Source of the DNA: Agapetus fuscipes | Lineage: Eukaryota > Arthropoda > Insecta > Trichoptera > Glossosomatidae | Reading direction: 5' to 3' | DNA: 64,000 nt | NCBI GenBank assembly: GCA_951799405.1 | Contig: OX637343.1 | Coordinates: 1,426,001 to 1,490,000, forward strand | In this document: positions 13,605 through 36,094 of the stretch, piece after piece | How the letters are laid out: each line of letters opens with the position of its first letter | Position numbering within the stretch: position 1 is the stretch's first letter | Notes under the pieces: model-generated | Seen by the model: only the letters and a program-made list of their open reading frames with translations | What the model was told of the DNA's origin: nothing | Databases searched by the model: none | Program-made: the position numbers and the translations under genes

Positions 13605-13992
13605 GAAGATTTGCGATCATCATGACTCTGGATGAAATGAAAGAAGTATGCAAGGTCAGAAAAAAATAGCGGTTGATCTGTAATGTTGGCGTTTAGGGTT
13701 TTTAAATTAGAATTTTGTTTAAAGTTTTAGTTTTGATGTCCATACGTCGATTTAAAAAATGTAATTTGTTGTGTATGTTCCTTGACTTATAGGTTGGTAT
13801 GCAGCTGACCATTCATGCTGTAGAAGATGGTTCACTTTGCCAATGTCACTCCTGTTTCAGAGAAGATCGGCAAGAGTTGCAGGGTGTATGTTCATTTGAG
13901 ATTCGGGTTTTCATATGCGGCATGTTTTAGCGCGAATTTATACGTGTCTGCTTGTGAAAATGCATAAAATGTGAATTCTTAATGTTACATAT
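13605..13992 (+). mobile_element. LINE-X, 5' part of the copy hit by Gypsy
   Basis: Coding remnant (MTLDEMKEVCKVRKK, then an in-frame stop) and tail from 'ccttgacttataggttgg' to 'gaattcttaatgttacatat'. The tail continues on the other side of the retrotransposon at 22264 ('atatctttgcaacttat'). Confidence 0.85.
13989..13992. repeat. Target duplication ATAT, left
   Basis: The four bases before the 3' LTR equal those after the 5' LTR. Removing the element and one ATAT restores 'gttacatatctttgcaac', the normal LINE-X tail end. Confidence 0.85.
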
Positions 13993-14460
13993 TGTTACGA
14001 AATTAGGGTTCAATTGTCTTCAAATTAAAACTACACAGGTCTTCTTCAATAGTTATTTATTTTACACAGTTACAAAATTTATTTTCACACTACTTTCTCG
14101 ATTATTCCATTGGTTTCGGTTCACTGATCAGATGGCTTCGATGTGTTTGTTAGTCGCTATGATACTGGCCCGCTCTGCAGGCCATTCGCACCTTTATACT
14201 CTTCAGAGCAGTATGATCCAGAACTAAAGTCGCCAGACGGTTCCAGAGTAATTATTACTTCTCGATGTTTCACGTACTACCTAGACACAACCAAAATCCT
14301 ACCTACCAATGCAATACAGTATTCCTATTATAACAAATACCTACTTAGCCTAGAGAATTCTACACTTATACATAATTATCGATCTTACCTACCAATACTT
14401 TTGAGGATTCTTATAACTATAACTACCCATACTTATTTCAATATTTATATTTACATAACA
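13993..14460 (-). repeat. 3' LTR
   Basis: 468 bp with 5'-TG...CA-3' ends (plus strand tgttacgaaatt ... ttacataaca). By eye it matches the other LTR base for base at an offset of 7,803. As the downstream LTR it would supply the polyadenylation site. Short plus-strand open frames in it are not genes. Confidence 0.97.
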
Positions 14461-14473
14461 CTACCCCCCACCT
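14461..14473 (-). promoter_or_regulatory. Polypurine tract overlapping the pol stop
   Basis: Minus strand aggtggggggtag lies directly against the 3' LTR, the normal place for plus-strand priming. The same bases encode the last pol residues, and the final TAG is the pol stop codon, so pol ends exactly at the LTR edge. Confidence 0.9.
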
Positions 14474-15726
14474 AGACTGTTTCGTCCCGGAACAGTCTTG
14501 ACTCTGTGTAGGTAGGGGCATGCTGATCCACGTCGACACCCTGTGGTCAGGAAGAAGTGGCAGTCCACGGATTTCTCCCCACTGGCTCTCGGCTGCGCTT
14601 GCTCGCAGCACACCATGACGCTGATGCCGACTCCCGAGAACACTGCTTCAATCATACTCCGGATTATCCGCCAGTCTCGATTAGCGCGGCCGCCACCCAT
14701 CTTCGGTATTGCCAGACGCGCCTGCTGATCCTCCAACATGTAGTCACGCAGCTCAACAAGGCCGTCCCACAATGCCTTGTAGTCCTCTTCCAGGTTGCTG
14801 GAATCCGGGACAACCAGGCAGTATGCTTGTTGACGCCCCTTCGGTAGTCTCAGAGCTCTTCCTTGCGGGCTGCTCGAGGGTTGCGGTTCTCCGAATTTGT
14901 ATCGGAAGACCCGTGCAATTCCTCTAGACATATCTAGATCTTCCGGTACACTGCATGCCAGTGGGTGGTCCCTAGTGACCTCAAATAAGTCCTTGTGGAC
15001 TTCTGTGGTCACTCCATGGCGAAACTTCTGCCCTGCCTTCGCGTTCTCCCAAAACGTCTCAAAGGCTGGTGATCTTTCGGATGCGACGCACTGTCGTACT
15101 TTTTGGGCTGGTTGGTCATCATTATCGCCTAGGTATGGTGAGAGGCGATTGTAGTGCACGACCCTTGGTTTTCCGTTTGGTCTCTTTTTTATGCGGTAGA
15201 CCACATCGTTGATGCGCTCCAAGATCTCGTACGGCCCGTCCCAGGAACGCTGAAGTTTCGGACAGTATCCTTGGCGCCTCTTGGGGTCAAAAAGCCACAC
15301 CCAGTCACCAGCTTTGTACCCCATGCTGTCAGCTCTGGTGTCATAGCGCTCCTTCATTTGATCGCTGGCTTCCCCGATGTTCATGCGGACCTGATCATGG
15401 ATGTCATCCAGCCTCCTGCGAAGGTCTGTCACATAGTCTTCTCCGGCTAGGTCTTCACCTGGTTTGCAGCCAAATTTGAGATCACAAGGAAGTCGCATTT
15501 CTCGCCCAAACAGTATGCTGCTGGGAGTCTTCTTCGTCGTTTCCTGAACAGCCGACCGGTAAGCCAATAAGAACAAAGGCAGATGTCGGTCCCAGTCCCG
15601 CTGATGGCTGGACACTACTTTGGCTAAGTACCTCCCCACGGTACGGTTCATCCTTTCCACCATTCCATCAGACTGTGGATGTAGCGCAGTGGTCCTGGTC
15701 TTGTAGATCCCTAGCCGCTCACACAT
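14461..15726 (-). CDS. pol: Integrase C-terminus, macrodomain and CCCH finger
   Basis: Third pol frame, 421 codons from the internal ATG. The integrase catalytic Glu is in SDGMVERMNR (E24). A linker and the GPY/F module follow (GDWVWLF, SWDGPYEIL, VVYRIK, residues ~138-195). The frame then continues about 210 residues beyond a standard integrase. Residues ~240-373 resemble a macrodomain of the OARD1/TARG1 type (ACSVPEDLDMSRGIARVF, YKFG, IPKMGGG, MIEAVF). A CCCH zinc finger follows at 389-407. The stop is the last codon before the LTR. Integrase inserts element DNA; the extra domains suggest ADP-ribose and RNA binding, which is inference. Confidence 0.85.
   Translation of the reverse strand: MCERLGIYKTRTTALHPQSDGMVERMNRTVGRYLAKVVSSHQRDWDRHLPLFLLAYRSAVQETTKKTPSSILFGREMRLPCDLKFGCKPGEDLAGEDYVTDLRRRLDDIHDQVRMNIGEASDQMKERYDTRADSMGYKAGDWVWLFDPKRRQGYCPKLQRSWDGPYEILERINDVVYRIKKRPNGKPRVVHYNRLSPYLGDNDDQPAQKVRQCVASERSPAFETFWENAKAGQKFRHGVTTEVHKDLFEVTRDHPLACSVPEDLDMSRGIARVFRYKFGEPQPSSSPQGRALRLPKGRQQAYCLVVPDSSNLEEDYKALWDGLVELRDYMLEDQQARLAIPKMGGGRANRDWRIIRSMIEAVFSGVGISVMVCCEQAQPRASGEKSVDCHFFLTTGCRRGSACPYLHRVKTVPGRNSLGGG
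14506..14562 (-). other. CCCH zinc finger at pol C-terminus
   Basis: C389-X7-C397-X5-C403-X3-H407 (DCHFFLTTGCRRGSACPYLH). This is close to the canonical C-X7/8-C-X5-C-X3-H finger of RNA-binding proteins, including the typical aromatic and the G/R-rich spacing. It differs from the CCHC knuckle already present in Gag. Confidence 0.8.
14608..15009 (-). other. Macrodomain-like region of pol
   Basis: Residues ~240-373 of the last pol frame. Visible family features: an opening strand leading to ACSVPEDLDMSRGIA (the ligand-loop region of OARD1/TARG1-like macrodomains), RVFRYKFG, a strand AYCLVV, a helix LWDGLVELRDYM, the loop IPKMGGG before RDW, and a helix MIEAVF then ISVMV. By a from-memory alignment the Lys and Asp used by TARG1 for glycohydrolase chemistry are not conserved, so it may bind rather than cleave ADP-ribose. 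Assignment is by pattern recognition, not search. Confidence 0.72.
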
Positions 15727-16058
15727 TTGCTGGAGATAGCAGCTTCAAAGTTCCTTCCCTGATCAGAATGTAATTCCAGGGGTACGCCAAACCTGCTGAT
15801 AAATTCGGTAACTAGAACTTCAGTCACGGTTACGGCCTCTTGGTTAGGGATTGAGTAAGCTTCCACCCACTTGCTGAAGTAATCCATCACCACCATGATG
15901 TACTTGTTACCCTTCTCAGTTGTAGGAAATGGGCCAGCTATGTCGATGGCAATTCTTTCAAAGGGGCTGCCAACATTGTACTGACGCATTGGTGCTCGCC
16001 TTTTCCTTTGCGGTCCATTGGCCGTTGCACAGGTTACACATTTTCGACACCAATCTTT
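15711..16058 (-). pseudogene. pol: Integrase middle segment (frameshifted)
   Basis: Continuation of pol in a frame displaced by one base. It begins with the CX2C half of the HHCC zinc finger (WCRKC, then VTC) and holds the first two catalytic acids of the integrase core: D in IAIDIAGP and D in HSDQGRNF, 60 residues apart. A second one-base loss near 15735 ends this frame at CVSG. Domain content is normal for Gypsy integrase, so the break looks recent, or could be a sequencing error. Confidence 0.9.
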
Positions 16059-18715
16059 GCGCTGCAGTTGATCCAGTAAAATCGCTCTTTCACTTTCTCC
16101 AGCGTCTTCTTAACGCCTAGATGTCCTCCAGAAGTTCCTCCATGCAGCAGTCCAAGGATTTCCGGTACTCGGCTCCTCGGAACGAGGGTTTGCTTTCTTC
16201 TAAGTGTGCCGTCTTCCTTCTCGATCTTTCGTTTCAGAAACCCTCCTTCTATCACTATGGATCCCCATTGAGCCCAATAAGCCTTGACAGTTGGTGATAA
16301 GGGGGCGAGTTTTTCCCAGGTTGGCCTTTCTCCTTCTCGCGCCCATTCCATCACATACTTCAAGTCCGGATCATTCAGTTGGTCTTGCGCCAATTTTTCA
16401 TCTTGCCAGTCCTCATCTTCGGTGGTCGTCCTTTGGACAATTGCTACCTTGTCCTCCATCTTGCTGCAATGTTTGCAGTCACTGGCGCATGGTCGTCTGG
16501 ATAATGCATCCGCATTTCGATGAAGCGTGCCAGGTCTATGTTCGGAGTCATAATCATACTCCTGGAGCCTTTCAATCCATCTAGCCACTTGCCCTTCTGG
16601 GTTTTTGAATTTCAGAAGCCAAACCAGTGCAGCATGATCAGTCCGTAGTGTGAATTTTCTCCCGTACAAGTATTTGCGGAAGTGTTCCACTGATTTTATC
16701 ACGGCAAGAAGCTCTCGTCTGGTCACGCAATAATTTCGTTCTGGCTTGGAAAGCACTTTACTGAAGTAACCCAGAACAGTCTCATGCCCATCCTGTATTT
16801 GGGAAAGGACGCCTCCTATCCCCACATTACTAGCGTCGGTATCCAGGATGAACTTTCCATCTTTTCGTGGGTAGCTCAAGATGGGGGCACTTGTTAATCT
16901 TCCCTTAAGCTCTTCAAATGCTTGTGCGCAGGAATCACTCCAATGGAAGCGAGTGTTTTCTTCCGTAAGCTTGGTGAGCGGTTTTGCAATGTCCGCAAAT
17001 CTTGGCACAAACCTCCTGTAATAAGTGCACAGCCCCAGGAAACTCCTAGTTTCATGTTTGTCCTTCAGCACGGGCCAGTCTCTTACTGCCTTGATTTTGG
17101 CAGGGTCAACTTCAACTCCACGTTGAGAAACTATGTGTCCCAGGTAATTTACTTGTTTCTTGAACAGGTTACACTTTTTCGGGTTGAGCTTCAGTCCAGC
17201 GTCTTGTAGTCGCCCGAAAACTTGCTCCAGATTTCTCAACTGATGGTTGAAGTCCTTTCCCAGGATGATTATGTCATCCAAGTATACCAGGCAGGTTTCC
17301 CATGATAGTCCTCGCAGCACATTCTCCATCAGCCTTTCAAACGTGGCGGGGGCATTGCATAAGCCAAATGGCATCACGGTGAACTGCCAAAGTCCAGATC
17401 CAGTCGAGAATGCAGTTTTCTCCTTATCTTTGGCATCCAATTCAACTTGCCAGTAGCCACTTTTCAGGTCCAATGTGGAAAAAATGGTGCATCCTGCCAA
17501 TGTGTCCAAGGTGTCGTCAATCCTTGGCAGAGGGTAACTATCCTTTTTCGTAACATCGTTGAGCAGTCTGTAGTCCACACAAAATCTCGTGGTACCATCC
17601 TTCTTTTTCACCAGTACCACCGGGGATGTCCAAGGGCTACTTGATGGTTCTATGATGCCATCCTTGCTCATGTCTTTGATGATCTTGTCAGCTTCTTCCC
17701 GCTTTGCAAAGGGTAGTCTTCTTGGAGCCTGTTTTATTGGTCTCGCTTCTCCGGTGTCTATGCTATGTCGCACTACCTTGGTTCTTCCCAGACGGCCATT
17801 AGAGTCCTCGAAAATGTTCTGGTAGCGGCAGATCAAACTCCTCACTCTCCGTTTGTTTTCCTCGGTTAGACCTTGGGAAGCGTCGTGGACCAGGGCTTCC
17901 AATTGTGTTGACAATTTGTTTCCTTCGCATGACATGTTTGTCATCTGTTGCACAATGGAAGTTATCCTCTCACATCTGCCCAAAACAAAACCTTCATTCA
18001 TTTTAACTGGGTAGCTGTTCACATTCATGATCTTGACAGGAATGGTCTCCTTTGCGCGAATCACTGTTCTTGCCACCATGACTCCTTTGTTAACATTGTC
18101 CATGTTCTCCGGTTCTATCATACAGATTTGGTCATTTGTACTACTGGAATCCAGGCGGGCACTCACTATCATCTCGGATCGCCCCTTCACTTCGGTATTC
18201 TTGGCTAGGATAACACGTGCAGCCAGTTCTTTCCGTCTTTGCAGGATGACTTCTTCATTTCCAATTTTAATGGACCCTTTCTTTAAATTTAAACTGCACC
18301 CAAATCTGTCCAGTATGTCCATTCCCAATATAACGTCTTCTTCAATGTTGGCCACCAACGTCCGATGATCAAAAGTGGTGCTGCCAATTTGGAAGGTGGC
18401 AATCGTCTCCCCATACACCTGTGCTGACTCTCCCGTGGCGGTGTGCAGAGACCACTTTGTTGGTGCAATCTGCTTACCTCGTGCCACTATGTCGCGTCTC
18501 AGAATTGTCCTGGTTGCTCCCGTGTCCACCAGTAGTTCACGAGTTACTCCATCTATTATGCCATTGATAAAAATGCTGGTGGCTTTTCCTCTCACGGTTG
18601 CGACAGTAGCAGCAGATTTCAGGGCCTCTCCAGCGTGGGTCAACGGTTGCCCCTTCCCATTAACCCTTTCTAGTTTTCCGCAGCCTGTTTTCTGGGTTTC
18701 TGAGGCTTGGGACAC
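16034..18715 (-). CDS. pol: Pol: protease, reverse transcriptase, RNase H, integrase N-end
   Basis: Overlaps the end of gag in the -1 frame and has no good ATG, so translation probably needs a -1 ribosomal shift. Residue numbers count from 18715. Protease active site LLVDTGA (D64). RT: LDLKSGYWQ (D415) and YLDD (478-481). RNase H: LDTDAS (D625), E668 in RREL, D693 in RTDHAA and D736 in NADALS; all four acidic residues are present. The integrase zinc-binding start shows H858 and H865. The frame is then lost at about 16056-16058, an A-run one base too short, leaving a false C-terminus. RT and RNase H look undamaged. Confidence 0.95.
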   Translation of the reverse strand: MSQASETQKTGCGKLERVNGKGQPLTHAGEALKSAATVATVRGKATSIFINGIIDGVTRELLVDTGATRTILRRDIVARGKQIAPTKWSLHTATGESAQVYGETIATFQIGSTTFDHRTLVANIEEDVILGMDILDRFGCSLNLKKGSIKIGNEEVILQRRKELAARVILAKNTEVKGRSEMIVSARLDSSSTNDQICMIEPENMDNVNKGVMVARTVIRAKETIPVKIMNVNSYPVKMNEGFVLGRCERITSIVQQMTNMSCEGNKLSTQLEALVHDASQGLTEENKRRVRSLICRYQNIFEDSNGRLGRTKVVRHSIDTGEARPIKQAPRRLPFAKREEADKIIKDMSKDGIIEPSSSPWTSPVVLVKKKDGTTRFCVDYRLLNDVTKKDSYPLPRIDDTLDTLAGCTIFSTLDLKSGYWQVELDAKDKEKTAFSTGSGLWQFTVMPFGLCNAPATFERLMENVLRGLSWETCLVYLDDIIILGKDFNHQLRNLEQVFGRLQDAGLKLNPKKCNLFKKQVNYLGHIVSQRGVEVDPAKIKAVRDWPVLKDKHETRSFLGLCTYYRRFVPRFADIAKPLTKLTEENTRFHWSDSCAQAFEELKGRLTSAPILSYPRKDGKFILDTDASNVGIGGVLSQIQDGHETVLGYFSKVLSKPERNYCVTRRELLAVIKSVEHFRKYLYGRKFTLRTDHAALVWLLKFKNPEGQVARWIERLQEYDYDSEHRPGTLHRNADALSRRPCASDCKHCSKMEDKVAIVQRTTTEDEDWQDEKLAQDQLNDPDLKYVMEWAREGERPTWEKLAPLSPTVKAYWAQWGSIVIEGGFLKRKIEKEDGTLRRKQTLVPRSRVPEILGLLHGGTSGGHLGVKKTLEKVKERFYWINCSAKIGVENV

Positions 18716-20049
18716 TTGGTGCTAAGGTGGCCCAGCTGTCCGCAGTTCCAGCAGCGTGGGTCTCGTCTTCGAGGTCTCAGACGTTCCAGCACTTTTTCAA
18801 TTAGCTCCTCGGTTGTAGGTAGCTTGACCTCCTCTGCCTCGACTGCACGAACCCTGGCGTGGCCCCTGATGGACTGTTTGACAGCCTCAAACTCGAGAGC
18901 TTGGCTGAGCGCCTCGTTCAAAGCCTTGGGATGGGCCAGTTTTACGGCTTGTTGCGTCTCCCATTCCCGCAATCCATTTAGAAACTTGTCCACTGCCAAG
19001 CTCTCACAGATGTCGTCGGAGGCTGTCGGGTAAGCGTCTCGTACCAGGCGGGCGATGTCCATTTCAAACTCCTGGAGGCTCTCGTTGGGCTTCTGCACCC
19101 TTGTGTTCAGCTGCGACTTGTACAGCTGCTCCAGGCACTTGTGGCCATAGCGCATATCCAAGCGCTGCTTCAGCTGCCCAAAGTCACCACGGTTGTCCAG
19201 GGGTATGGCCTGCAGAACCCTGAGAGCGTCTCCTCGGAGCGACAGGCTGAGAACCGAAGCTTTCTTCTGCTGGCTCCAGGCTCCCATCATGGCAGCCGTC
19301 TCAAAGAGGGTCAAATACTCCTCCCACGACGTCTTCCCGTCGAAGGTCGGAAGGTTGTGCTTCGACAGCGAAGGGTCGTCATCCCCTCTAGTGACCCTGG
19401 TTGGAGTTGAGCATCCCTGGTCGGTCTCGTCGTGAAGGCCGTCTTTGGGGGATATTCTGGTGGACTCCATCTGGCACTTGTCAGCCAGCTCGGCACGCAG
19501 ACGATCCTCCAGGCTTGCCACACGGGCCTCAATCTCCGACATTGCTCGCGAGCTTTCTGCCACTTTCTTCTCCAGCCCGGCTAGGTTGCTGGTCATCTTC
19601 TCCTCCAGCCCAGTCATCTTCTCCTCCAGCCCGGTCAGGTTGCTGGTCATCTTCTCCTCCATGGTTGCCAGGTCCTCCTTCAGGGTCTTGGCGTTGTCAG
19701 CCATCTTCTCCTCCAGGGTCTTGGCGTTGTCAGCCATCTCCGCCTTCAGGTCTTCCCTCAGGGTCTTGGAATTGTCAGCCATTTTCTCCTCCAGGGTCCT
19801 GGCGTTGTCAGCCATCTCAGTCTTCAGTCCTGTCAGGTTACTGTTGATGCTGATATTTAGCTCGTCCAAGGCGCGGTCCCCTCCAGACGCCATGACAAAA
19901 TATGCCGGGTCTTCGCCTGACTGTTCCAAGGCCTCTATGAGGCGTGCTTGTAAGGCTGCCTTTCCTCCTGAGGTCTCCAGGTCCCTCTCCAGAAGCTCAT
20001 TTTTAAGCTCAGTGACTTTGAGGTCCTTGACGTTCACTTTAGTTGCCAT
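18670..20049 (-). CDS. gag: Gag polyprotein with SAP-like domain
   Basis: Structural protein that packages element RNA into virus-like particles. The ATG at 20049 is chosen; a TTG lies four codons upstream. Residues ~1-45 (VKDLKVTELKNELLERDLE..., GGKAALQARL) fit a SAP domain, a DNA-binding helix-extended-helix. Residues ~65-190 form a heptad-rich coiled coil with repeated EEKMADNAKTL-type units. The capsid-like core follows (LPTFDGKTSWEEYLTLFE, ...LSLRGDALRVL...). A zinc knuckle closes it: CWNCGQLGHLSTKC (CX2CX4HX4C). Stop at 18670-18672. About 459 residues, intact. SAP plus coiled coil at the N-terminus of Gag is uncommon in textbook Gypsy elements. Confidence 0.93.
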   Translation of the reverse strand: MATKVNVKDLKVTELKNELLERDLETSGGKAALQARLIEALEQSGEDPAYFVMASGGDRALDELNISINSNLTGLKTEMADNARTLEEKMADNSKTLREDLKAEMADNAKTLEEKMADNAKTLKEDLATMEEKMTSNLTGLEEKMTGLEEKMTSNLAGLEKKVAESSRAMSEIEARVASLEDRLRAELADKCQMESTRISPKDGLHDETDQGCSTPTRVTRGDDDPSLSKHNLPTFDGKTSWEEYLTLFETAAMMGAWSQQKKASVLSLSLRGDALRVLQAIPLDNRGDFGQLKQRLDMRYGHKCLEQLYKSQLNTRVQKPNESLQEFEMDIARLVRDAYPTASDDICESLAVDKFLNGLREWETQQAVKLAHPKALNEALSQALEFEAVKQSIRGHARVRAVEAEEVKLPTTEELIEKVLERLRPRRRDPRCWNCGQLGHLSTKCPKPQKPRKQAAEN

Positions 20050-20061
20050 TTTTTTTTTCAA

Positions 20062-21077: not shown

Positions 21078-21790
21078 TTAGACAGACGAGTTCTCGCCAT
21101 AGCTAGCACAAAACTTTGAAAAAGCCCCAAAGTTAGATTTGTTGGCCACAAAGTCCGCATATCCGATCGGGCCGATGGCCGGTCTGACAGCGTTGAAGAG
21201 CGCCTCACGACCAGGCTGCAAGGCTTCGCAGTCCCACAGGATGTGTCGCACATCCTGCAGCGTCGCTCCGCACTCACAACCCGACCCCCTTGAGAGGCCA
21301 AGCTGGAAGAGCCTGGCCCTAAATTTACCGTGACCAGTCAAGAACTGACTGGTCCAATGGTCCGGGACCAACCAAGGAGCCTCGTATCTCTCACGGACCG
21401 AGGGAAAGAAAGAAAAGGTGGTTCTGCCTTTGTCGGAGGAATCCCATCGTTTTTGCCACACGCGGAGAGCCATAAGCACAACCAGTTTCCGAGTTCCAGA
21501 GGATATTCCTCGGGTGGGGGGATCAATGCTATCTTCGCCGATAGTAGCGGTGAGGCCGCGTCTCAAAAGACTTATGGCGTTGGCAACCTGGAGGTGAAGA
21601 TCCAGAGGAAGGACACCGGCAAGAACGGGGAGACAGTCCGTTGACGCGGATCTGTACGCCTTGGTGAGCAAGCGGAGAGATAATCTCTGGCCGGAAAGGA
21701 TGACACGCCGCTGTAGACTCAAAAGGCTCTTATTTTTCTCTATTTTTAGACAGAAGATCTTAATTTTTCTTGACAATTCCGCACCTGACG
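21078..21790 (-). pseudogene. R1-type LINE RT C-terminus inside the Gypsy leader
   Basis: An uninterrupted frame of about 237 codons runs from the primer site inward with no proper ATG. From about residue 28 it reads like the region after the RT domain of R1/Jockey-group LINEs (RVILSGQRLSLRLLTKAYRS), and near the end it has a Cys/His cluster (CECGATLQDVRHILWDC). A purine-rich 3' segment with 'aagaaaagaagaaag' follows near 21050. It is on the same strand as the Gypsy genes. Intactness suggests recent capture; a role in the element is not shown. Confidence 0.75.
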
Positions 21791-21795: not shown

Positions 21796-22263
21796 TGTTA
21801 CGAAATTAGGGTTCAATTGTCTTCAAATTAAAACTACACAGGTCTTCTTCAATAGTTATTTATTTTACACAGTTACAAAATTTATTTTCACACTACTTTC
21901 TCGATTATTCCATTGGTTTCGGTTCACTGATCAGATGGCTTCGATGTGTTTGTTAGTCGCTATGATACTGGCCCGCTCTGCAGGCCATTCGCACCTTTAT
22001 ACTCTTCAGAGCAGTATGATCCAGAACTAAAGTCGCCAGACGGTTCCAGAGTAATTATTACTTCTCGATGTTTCACGTACTACCTAGACACAACCAAAAT
22101 CCTACCTACCAATGCAATACAGTATTCCTATTATAACAAATACCTACTTAGCCTAGAGAATTCTACACTTATACATAATTATCGATCTTACCTACCAATA
22201 CTTTTGAGGATTCTTATAACTATAACTACCCATACTTATTTCAATATTTATATTTACATAACA
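21796..22263 (-). repeat. 5' LTR
   Basis: Second 468-bp copy and, given the minus orientation, the promoter-bearing LTR. It directly adjoins the primer binding site at 21793. I could not assign a TATA box or initiator with confidence. Confidence 0.97.
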
Positions 22264-22295
22264 ATATCTTTGCAACTTATATTAGATTAGATGTC
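22264..22295 (+). mobile_element. Target duplication ATAT and LINE-X tail end, right
   Basis: ATAT at 22264-22267, then 'ctttgcaacttat' and a short gatta repeat. This is the missing 3' end of the LINE-X copy that begins at 13605. Confidence 0.85.
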
Positions 22296-34398: not shown

Positions 34399-34520
34399 GT
34401 CAACGATGATACCATGTTGAAAGCACCCGTTCTCATCAGATCACCGAAGTTAAACAACATTGGGCGCGGATGCTACTTGGATGGGTGACCGCTTAGGTAT
34501 ACACCGCGTGTCGTTGGCAT
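34399..34520 (+). rRNA. 5S rRNA-like copy (probable pseudogene)
   Basis: About 121 bases aligned by eye along the whole animal 5S rRNA. Hallmarks: 'accatgttgaaagcacc', 'gatcaccgaagttaa' (box A region), 'cttggatgggtgaccg' (box C) and 'acaccgcgtg'. Several substitutions (for example 'gcttaggtat' in place of the usual gcctggga block) suggest a decayed gene or a 5S-derived retroposon. It is followed two bases later by a SINE-B head, so it might be part of a composite element. Confidence 0.75.
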
Positions 34521-35022: not shown

Positions 35023-35510
35023 TTGCATGATTGCCTACCAGTGGCGAAGGGTGCCATACAAGCCGATTCCCATCGGTTTCCCGTTTAAAATGAGGCAAAA
35101 ATGATAATAAAGTAGACTGCATGGTTTCAATGGGGAAAAAATACGTATTGTTTCTTTGGTTTTAAATGTATTTTTTACTTTGTGCCTATATTTTTTAACT
35201 ACTTTGTTACATCATTTTAAAAGGAAAGCCGATGGCAACCGGCTTGTATGGCACCCTTCGCCGCTGTTGCCTACTCACTTTGAGAACCTCCAGGTCTGAT
35301 ACAGGAGGGTTCTCTGACATATTTCATTGTAACATTACGTTTTCCTGATCCCCCTATAGTTCAAAACATTAAAATGACTTATCTAACTGGCTGGAGGAAC
35401 CCTATGAATGAATTAAAAACGACTTTTCCTAACATTATTCACATTTGAAATGAATGCCGTATTATAAAACGTACTGATTAAGAGTTTTAGGCTTACACGG
35501 CCGGCTGATG
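35023..35510. other. Nothing recognised
   Basis: 'gccatacaagccgattccca' (35050) and 'ggcttgtatggcacccttcg' (35242) are partly inverted, hinting at a decayed foldback element. No gene. Confidence 0.4.
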
Positions 35511-35570
35511 ATGCTGGAGTGATGTTTTCCGGGATCTGTTGCCGTGGTCTGTGGGAGCTGGAGCTTCCAA
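35511..35570 (-). mobile_element. Penelope-like terminal scrap
   Basis: 'ttccgggatctgttgccgtg' and 'ggagcttcc' repeat the segment at 33003-33045 next to a hammerhead-like motif. It directly borders the 33-bp minisatellite. Confidence 0.5.
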
Positions 35571-36024
35571 TGATCGATCTATCAATGGAAGCTCCAGCTC
35601 CAATGATCGATCTATCAATGGAAGTTCCAGCTCTAATGATCGATCTATCAATGGAAGCTCCAGCTCTAATGATCGATCTATCAATGGAAGCTCCAGTTTC
35701 AATGATCGATCTATCAATGGAAGCTCCAGTTTCAATGATCGATCTATCAATGGAAGCTCCAGTTTCAATGATCGATCTATCAATGGAAGCTCCAGTTCTA
35801 ATGATCGATCTATCAATGGAAGCTCCATCTCCAATGATCGATCTATCAATGGAAGCTTCATCTCCAATGATCGATCTATCAATGGAAGCTCCATCTCAAA
35901 TGATCGATCTATCAATGGAAGCTCCATCTCCAATGATCGATCTATCAATGGAAGCTCCAGCTCTAATGATCGATCTATCAATGGAAGCTCCAGCTCCAAT
36001 GATCGATCTATCAATGGAAGCTCC
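35571..36024. repeat. 33-bp minisatellite, about 14 units
   Basis: Unit 'aatgatcgatctatcaatgg' + 'aagctccagctct' (33 bp). Variation is confined almost entirely to the last six bases. Because 33 is divisible by three, several plus and minus frames stay open (11-residue repeats such as MIDLSMEAPAP or NDRSINGSSSS), giving false genes of 160-180 codons. Part of the unit is a near-palindrome around gatcgatc. Confidence 0.97.
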
Positions 36025-36094
36025 TTTAAATTTTGTTATGAATTTTAAAGCATTTAAAATAAAAAAATAACATAACAAATAATATTTGTGGGCA

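Follow-up and report, generated by a model that had tools for sequence, protein, structure and literature searches.

A TARG1-like macrodomain and a CCCH zinc finger at the end of pol in a Ty3/Gypsy retrotransposon family of Agapetus fuscipes

In the trichopteran Agapetus fuscipes, a retrotransposon of the Ty3/Gypsy type carries at the C-terminal end of its pol a TARG1/ALC1-like macrodomain followed by a CCCH zinc finger. The element lies in a stretch of 64,000 nucleotides (assembly GCA_951799405.1, contig OX637343.1, positions 1,426,001 to 1,490,000; hereafter the window, to which all coordinates refer) and belongs to a recently active family (family A). The same extension is common to this family, two sister families (A' and C), related sequences of other records and a derivative that lacks pol.

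The extension was delimited in an open frame of 421 residues that ends pol. Pfam places the integrase C-terminal (GPY/F) module at residues 164-197, and 217 further residues (205-421) lead from there to the stop codon, in agreement with an initial annotation made from the letters alone, which had counted about 210. Compared by phmmer with PDB sequences, these 217 residues alone matched human OARD1 (C6orf130, also TARG1; E 1.3e-10) over residues 37-168 of the extension, that is residues 241-372 of the frame, where a macrodomain-like stretch had been proposed (~240-373). The profile search named as a check in that annotation likewise returned matches, to phrog_335 ('phosphatase', E 1.3e-8) and to the NCBIfam model of DarG (E 1.4e-5, far under that model's own cut-off), though not to the Pfam family Macro (PF01661), which found nothing on the window protein and reached only E 0.094 on family C. 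PF01661 is weak on the TARG1 class, since the OARD1-like exons of the host itself score only about its cut-off. The domain fits both the OARD1 sequence profile and the macrodomain fold, and we reject a chance likeness because OARD1 is matched by the window extension and by profiles built from the elements. A single-sequence AlphaFold model of the domain was poor and is not used as support. In a library of viral folds many macrodomains were matched, the top one being VP8 of Kadipiro virus (E 5.8e-11), possibly a TARG1-like macrodomain in a virus. The finger lies at residues 389-407 with exactly the spacing first described, C389-X7-C397-X5-C403-X3-H407. In a scan of the extension by itself it scores 21.6 bits, above the zf-CCCH cut-off of 20.5, and in a scan of all 421 residues 19.4 bits, slightly under it.

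The host of this extension is a Ty3/Gypsy element by its long terminal repeats (LTRs), target-site duplication, polypurine tract and order of protease, reverse transcriptase (RT), RNase H and integrase (Pfam, 16034-18715 and 14461-15726), which bears out its first assignment as Gypsy pol. Its features are as follows.

13989..13992, with its partner at 22264-22267, strand not applicable: target-site duplication ATAT
13993..14460, minus strand: 3' LTR, 468 bp, TG...CA, direct repeat identical to the 5' LTR
14461-14463, minus strand: pol stop codon, adjoining the 3' LTR
14464..14472, minus strand: polypurine tract, doubling as codons for the final pol residues
14461..15726, minus strand: C-terminal open frame of pol, 421 residues, with the end of the integrase core, GPY/F, macrodomain and CCCH finger
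14506..14562, minus strand: CCCH zinc finger C-X7-C-X5-C-X3-H (pattern and zf-CCCH score)
14602..15006, minus strand: TARG1/OARD1-class macrodomain (extension residues 37-171)
15136..15237, minus strand: integrase C-terminal (GPY/F) module (PF22938, E 8.3e-13)
15711..15989, minus strand: integrase piece in a different frame (list of open frames)
16034..18715, minus strand: pol with protease, RT, RNase H and integrase H2C2 (Pfam)
18670..20061, minus strand: gag frame with SAP domain, coiled coil, Retrotrans_gag and CCHC knuckle (Pfam)
21078..21737, minus strand: nested fragment in the leader, the C-terminal part of a 1115-residue frame of another repeat family
21796..22263, minus strand: 5' LTR, 468 bp

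The two LTRs show 0 mismatches in 468 positions, have TG..CA ends and are flanked by ATAT on both sides; a TGG stretch just inside the 5' LTR is a candidate primer-binding site. The polypurine stretch is coding and reads SLGGG-stop, the stop codon standing directly against the 3' LTR. Though young, the window copy is damaged: interruptions break the pol frame at about 15.7 and 16.0 kb.

To gauge how widely the extension is kept, short anchors were counted across the 618 Mb of the genome, 2 mismatches at most being allowed (reversed controls gave 0). There are 904 places for a 33-mer of the family A macrodomain, 636 for a 31-mer of the RT and 224 for a 36-mer of the pol-less derivative. Every fifth of 100 listed places among the 636 was then taken, giving 20 RT-anchored copies in which the RT was judged by its 31-mer only. 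The extension stood at the expected distance in 17, with all 217 residues open in 16 of them and a premature stop in one; nothing stood there in the remaining 3, although in one of these the 33-mer lies 1.7 kb off. Most sampled copies (16 of 20) thus keep the extension open, and the outcome by which the initial annotation would have been refuted, copies lacking the extension or gathering stops in it beside an intact RT, did not appear. In a search of the same genome with the 421-residue frame, the best-matching 99 of 2391 candidates were scored: all span the 421 residues without a stop, 81 of the 99 sit in frames of exactly 1422 residues, and, apart from the window copy, 98 of 98 sit in longer frames (525-1861 residues); as this is the best-matching part, its openness is uninformative on the remainder. 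When 150 of 995 candidates for the OARD1-like stretch were scored (3 of them host exons), 9 had a stop inside it.

Substitutions in the macrodomain show purifying selection, as judged by the ratio of nonsynonymous to synonymous change (dN/dS) from Nei-Gojobori counts on sequence pairs, two-sequence counts from which no site-wise selection is read. Between A and A' the ratio is 0.17 in the macrodomain (p 4e-10), well below 1 in a test that the initial annotation had named, 0.017 in RT, 0.044 in RNase H and 0.032 in integrase. In a pair of pol-less derivatives (NA1 and NA2) it is 0.11 in the macrodomain (p about 8e-8) and 0.30 in a second coiled coil. The NA1 macrodomain is 98.5% identical to that of family A with zero synonymous differences, and NA2 differs at dS 0.27, so this comparison is in effect one of A with NA2 and no proof of selection within the pol-less lineage. 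In a pair of type II elements, which carry the domain elsewhere in pol (see below), the macrodomain gives 0.085, RT 0.068 and the integrase core 0.075. The macrodomain ratio is below 1 at p below 1e-7 in each of the three pairs; between A and C synonymous sites are saturated in most domains. The type I macrodomain, that after GPY/F, is thus constrained yet fast-evolving relative to RT. For the finger-bearing tail the ratio is 0.24 at p 0.047 (A versus A'), and the derivative pair gives no significant result (p 0.35), so the main evidence that the finger is constrained is the conservation of its pattern.

In the window family the fold is kept but the catalytic pair is not. The catalytic pair of TARG1 is Lys84 and Asp125 (PMC9411070 and PMC7050489, the latter printing Glu125). 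Among 120 other rows of our alignment Lys84 is present in 119 and Asp125 in 120. These positions are Pro and Ala in the window element, A', the pol-less derivative and P0002, the only sequence returned by the first homolog search, and Arg and Ala in family C. Lys and Asp are kept in P0003, P0004, both aligned type II rows and a third type II row (L020). The pair has therefore been lost in the window family, its sister families and the derivative and retained in the outlying relatives P0003 and P0004 and in type II. The type I ancestor probably possessed it, since P0003 and P0004 fall inside or beside type I in the tree described below. The window family retains Asp20, Leu21, Gly43 and Gly123, and its row is changed at His32, Cys33, Ser35, Thr83, Cys122 and Leu124. 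Of the ADP-ribose module first proposed, the macrodomain class stands, but removal of ADP-ribose is disfavoured for the window family, although the pair is intact in related elements. The domain differs from TARG1/OARD1, a free-standing host enzyme, in being fused within pol to a CCCH finger and in lacking Lys84 and Asp125. DarG (of DarTG) and SCO6735, which are bacterial, are both reported active, the former with the lysine and the latter with Gln (PMC9411070).

Related elements place the module in other settings. P0003, from another record, is laid out as in type I, the macrodomain following the C-terminus of integrase, with no finger in the part seen. In P0004, a fragment, macrodomain and finger are visible but nothing of pol. 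When homologs were sought with the C-terminal 830 residues of a sister pol frame that is open, none of 507 candidates reached E 0.01 on the extension. The finger next to the macrodomain is kept in A, A', C, the pol-less derivative and P0004. The derivative (L033, L038, L039, L040 and L041) has a frame of 656-805 residues ending in macrodomain and finger; L033 and L039 show the full order of SAP, coiled coil, Gag, knuckle, second coiled coil (myosin-like), macrodomain and finger, and upstream of the macrodomain in L039 a Pfam scan finds no protease, RT, RNase H or integrase. Exchange among the families is apparent in L045 (G000:C17:10821500-10827100), a recombinant with RT 95% identical in protein to A and integrase and macrodomain 99.7% and 97.8% identical to C. 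Between L035 and L031, synonymous divergence is 0.15 in the finger-bearing tail, the last 49 codons of pol, against about 1.0 in the macrodomain, which suggests exchange of 3' ends between families.

The search with the OARD1-like stretch also brought up nine further elements (L012-L020), designated type II, in which a TARG1-like macrodomain follows RNase H and precedes integrase H2C2, without a finger; their junctions were inspected as far as the stretches reach, and those of L043 and L044 as full frames. A profile from three type II macrodomains alone matches OARD1 at 2.4e-24. L044 also has an env frame of the errantivirus type (Baculo_F, PF12259, E 2e-43). Of 28 genome-wide Baculo_F matches, some lie downstream of 6 of the 9 type II loci, within about 1.5 kb on contigs C12, C30, C147, C143 and C14 and at about 4.5 kb on C1, those on C14 and C1 carrying internal stops. 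Type II thus resembles errantiviruses (Gypsy, 17.6 and ZAM type) in pol order and env, and would differ from them in the macrodomain between RNase H and integrase.

In a tree of 129 domains and 141 columns with ultrafast bootstrap support, the type I macrodomains form one clade (100), near two uncharacterized flea proteins (P0044 and P0075), which combine a TARG1-like macrodomain with a long, charged N-terminal part and are their nearest, weakly placed relatives (69). Type II joins P0077 (99) elsewhere in the tree. Two captures are favoured because of the two positions in pol and the best tree separating the types; a constraint to a single origin of all retroelement macrodomains costs 20.7 log units and is not rejected at 5% in an approximately unbiased test on 39 taxa (p 0.062), and a single capture followed by movement within pol is possible. 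Recent capture from the host's own OARD1 gene is not supported, as the host OARD1-like exons (G000:C31:352918, C31:266644 and C52:33000; 43-45% identical to human) join flea OARD1 (94) and not type I. The two exons on C31 are about 86 kb apart and may belong to a duplicated host OARD1. Among other genes, COX1 reads as that of an insect, and the chorion family had no match either in this genome or in the controls, so that it does not bear on an early guess of Lepidoptera, since dropped.

The function that we favour, with confidence a little short of even, is that the window-family macrodomain serves as an ADP-ribose reader that docks or shields, descended from an eraser and assisted by RNA contact through the finger. 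It is favoured because the fold is kept, the catalytic pair lost, the selection pattern as described and the module also joined to Gag without integrase. The macrodomain would dock a Gag/Pol or Gag-only particle, or an integration complex, onto protein or nucleic acid of the host that bears ADP-ribose, or else mask ADP-ribose marks on the element's own products, and the finger would supply the RNA contact; the ancestral macrodomain could have erased the mark, and those of other elements in the genome may still do so. We infer every step from ADP-ribose binding onward. Catalytic exons of host PARPs are found on C3 and C17, and loss of PARP-1 in Drosophila raises several gypsy-type elements, possibly indirectly (PMC7712786). 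Alphaviruses and coronaviruses are likewise genetic parasites with a macrodomain inside a replication polyprotein; alphaviruses have repeatedly lost catalysis, the insect-specific ones among them (PMC10221186), and from Chikungunya mutants the authors inferred selection on binding over hydrolysis, with mixed effects in mosquitoes (PMC12632316).

A possible, if rather doubtful, alternative is a module that binds RNA or DNA, in which ADP-ribose chemistry has been lost and macrodomain and finger bind the element's own RNA for packaging. The conserved adjacent finger, the fusion to Gag where pol is gone and the loss of the catalytic pair would all agree with it, as would the binding of nucleic acids by SARS-CoV macrodomains 2 and 3 (PMC10221186), but Asp20 and the Gly-rich positions are retained, P0003 keeps the catalytic pair with no finger in the part seen, and type II does without a finger.

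An enzyme of counter-defence is unlikely; in the manner of DarG, TARG1 or a phage antitoxin mimic, it would strip ADP-ribose from the element's protein, from RNA ends or from DNA made by reverse transcription. Type II, P0003 and P0004 do retain Lys84 and Asp125, the type II macrodomain is about as constrained as its integrase core and RT, and the phage protein AdfB counters DarT (PMC11481870). Against this stands the absence of both catalytic residues from the window family, A', C and the derivative. Nor, within a limited search of the literature, do we know of an insect factor that acts against retroelements by ADP-ribosylation.

Reader domains are known as additions to LTR elements: chromoviruses are Ty3/Gypsy elements with a chromodomain, which reads methyl-lysine, after integrase. 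The window family resembles them in having a reader-type domain directly after GPY/F at the pol C-terminus, and differs in that it is a macrodomain with a CCCH finger. By analogy the domain might steer insertion to ADP-ribosylated chromatin, and its class includes the chromatin remodeller ALC1 (PMC7050489), but we consider this improbable, as the module is joined to Gag in a derivative without any integrase, which argues against pure integration targeting, and stands upstream of integrase in type II. That the domain is a passive passenger, a captured host fragment open by chance, would suit its fast evolution relative to RT and is very improbable given the ratios of 0.17, 0.11 (in effect A versus NA2) and 0.085 and the 16 of 17 sampled extensions that are open.

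RNA viruses and phages are known to use macrodomains to counter ADP-ribosylation. Such macrodomains and LTR elements with reader domains are known separately; among the matches listed in open-licence literature we recognised no description of a macrodomain in an LTR retroelement. Selection on the domain points to a possible interplay of retrotransposons with the ADP-ribose signalling of their host, as in some RNA viruses, and macrodomains that are selected, and possibly twice acquired, in LTR retroelements would make ADP-ribosylation a candidate level at which insects control transposons. More speculatively, and with no great confidence, TARG1-class macrodomains might have entered Ty3/Gypsy elements two or more times, at two sites in pol, as erasers or readers of ADP-ribose that a host defence yet to be discovered places on the protein or nucleic acid of the elements. 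This would be a counterpart in animals of DarTG and the phage mimics of its antitoxin, with an arms race that would have turned window-family erasers into binders. Related elements with and without the catalytic residues offer natural pairs for asking whether hydrolysis or binding is selected.

The fragment in the leader of the window element (21078-21737) looks like a nested insertion because matches begin at residue 19 of its open frame; its family is abundant and has no Pfam hit, and its tail resembles the non-LTR type by eye. Elsewhere the window contains a 5S rRNA gene (34399-34519) and an array with repetitive frames on both strands (35493-36070).
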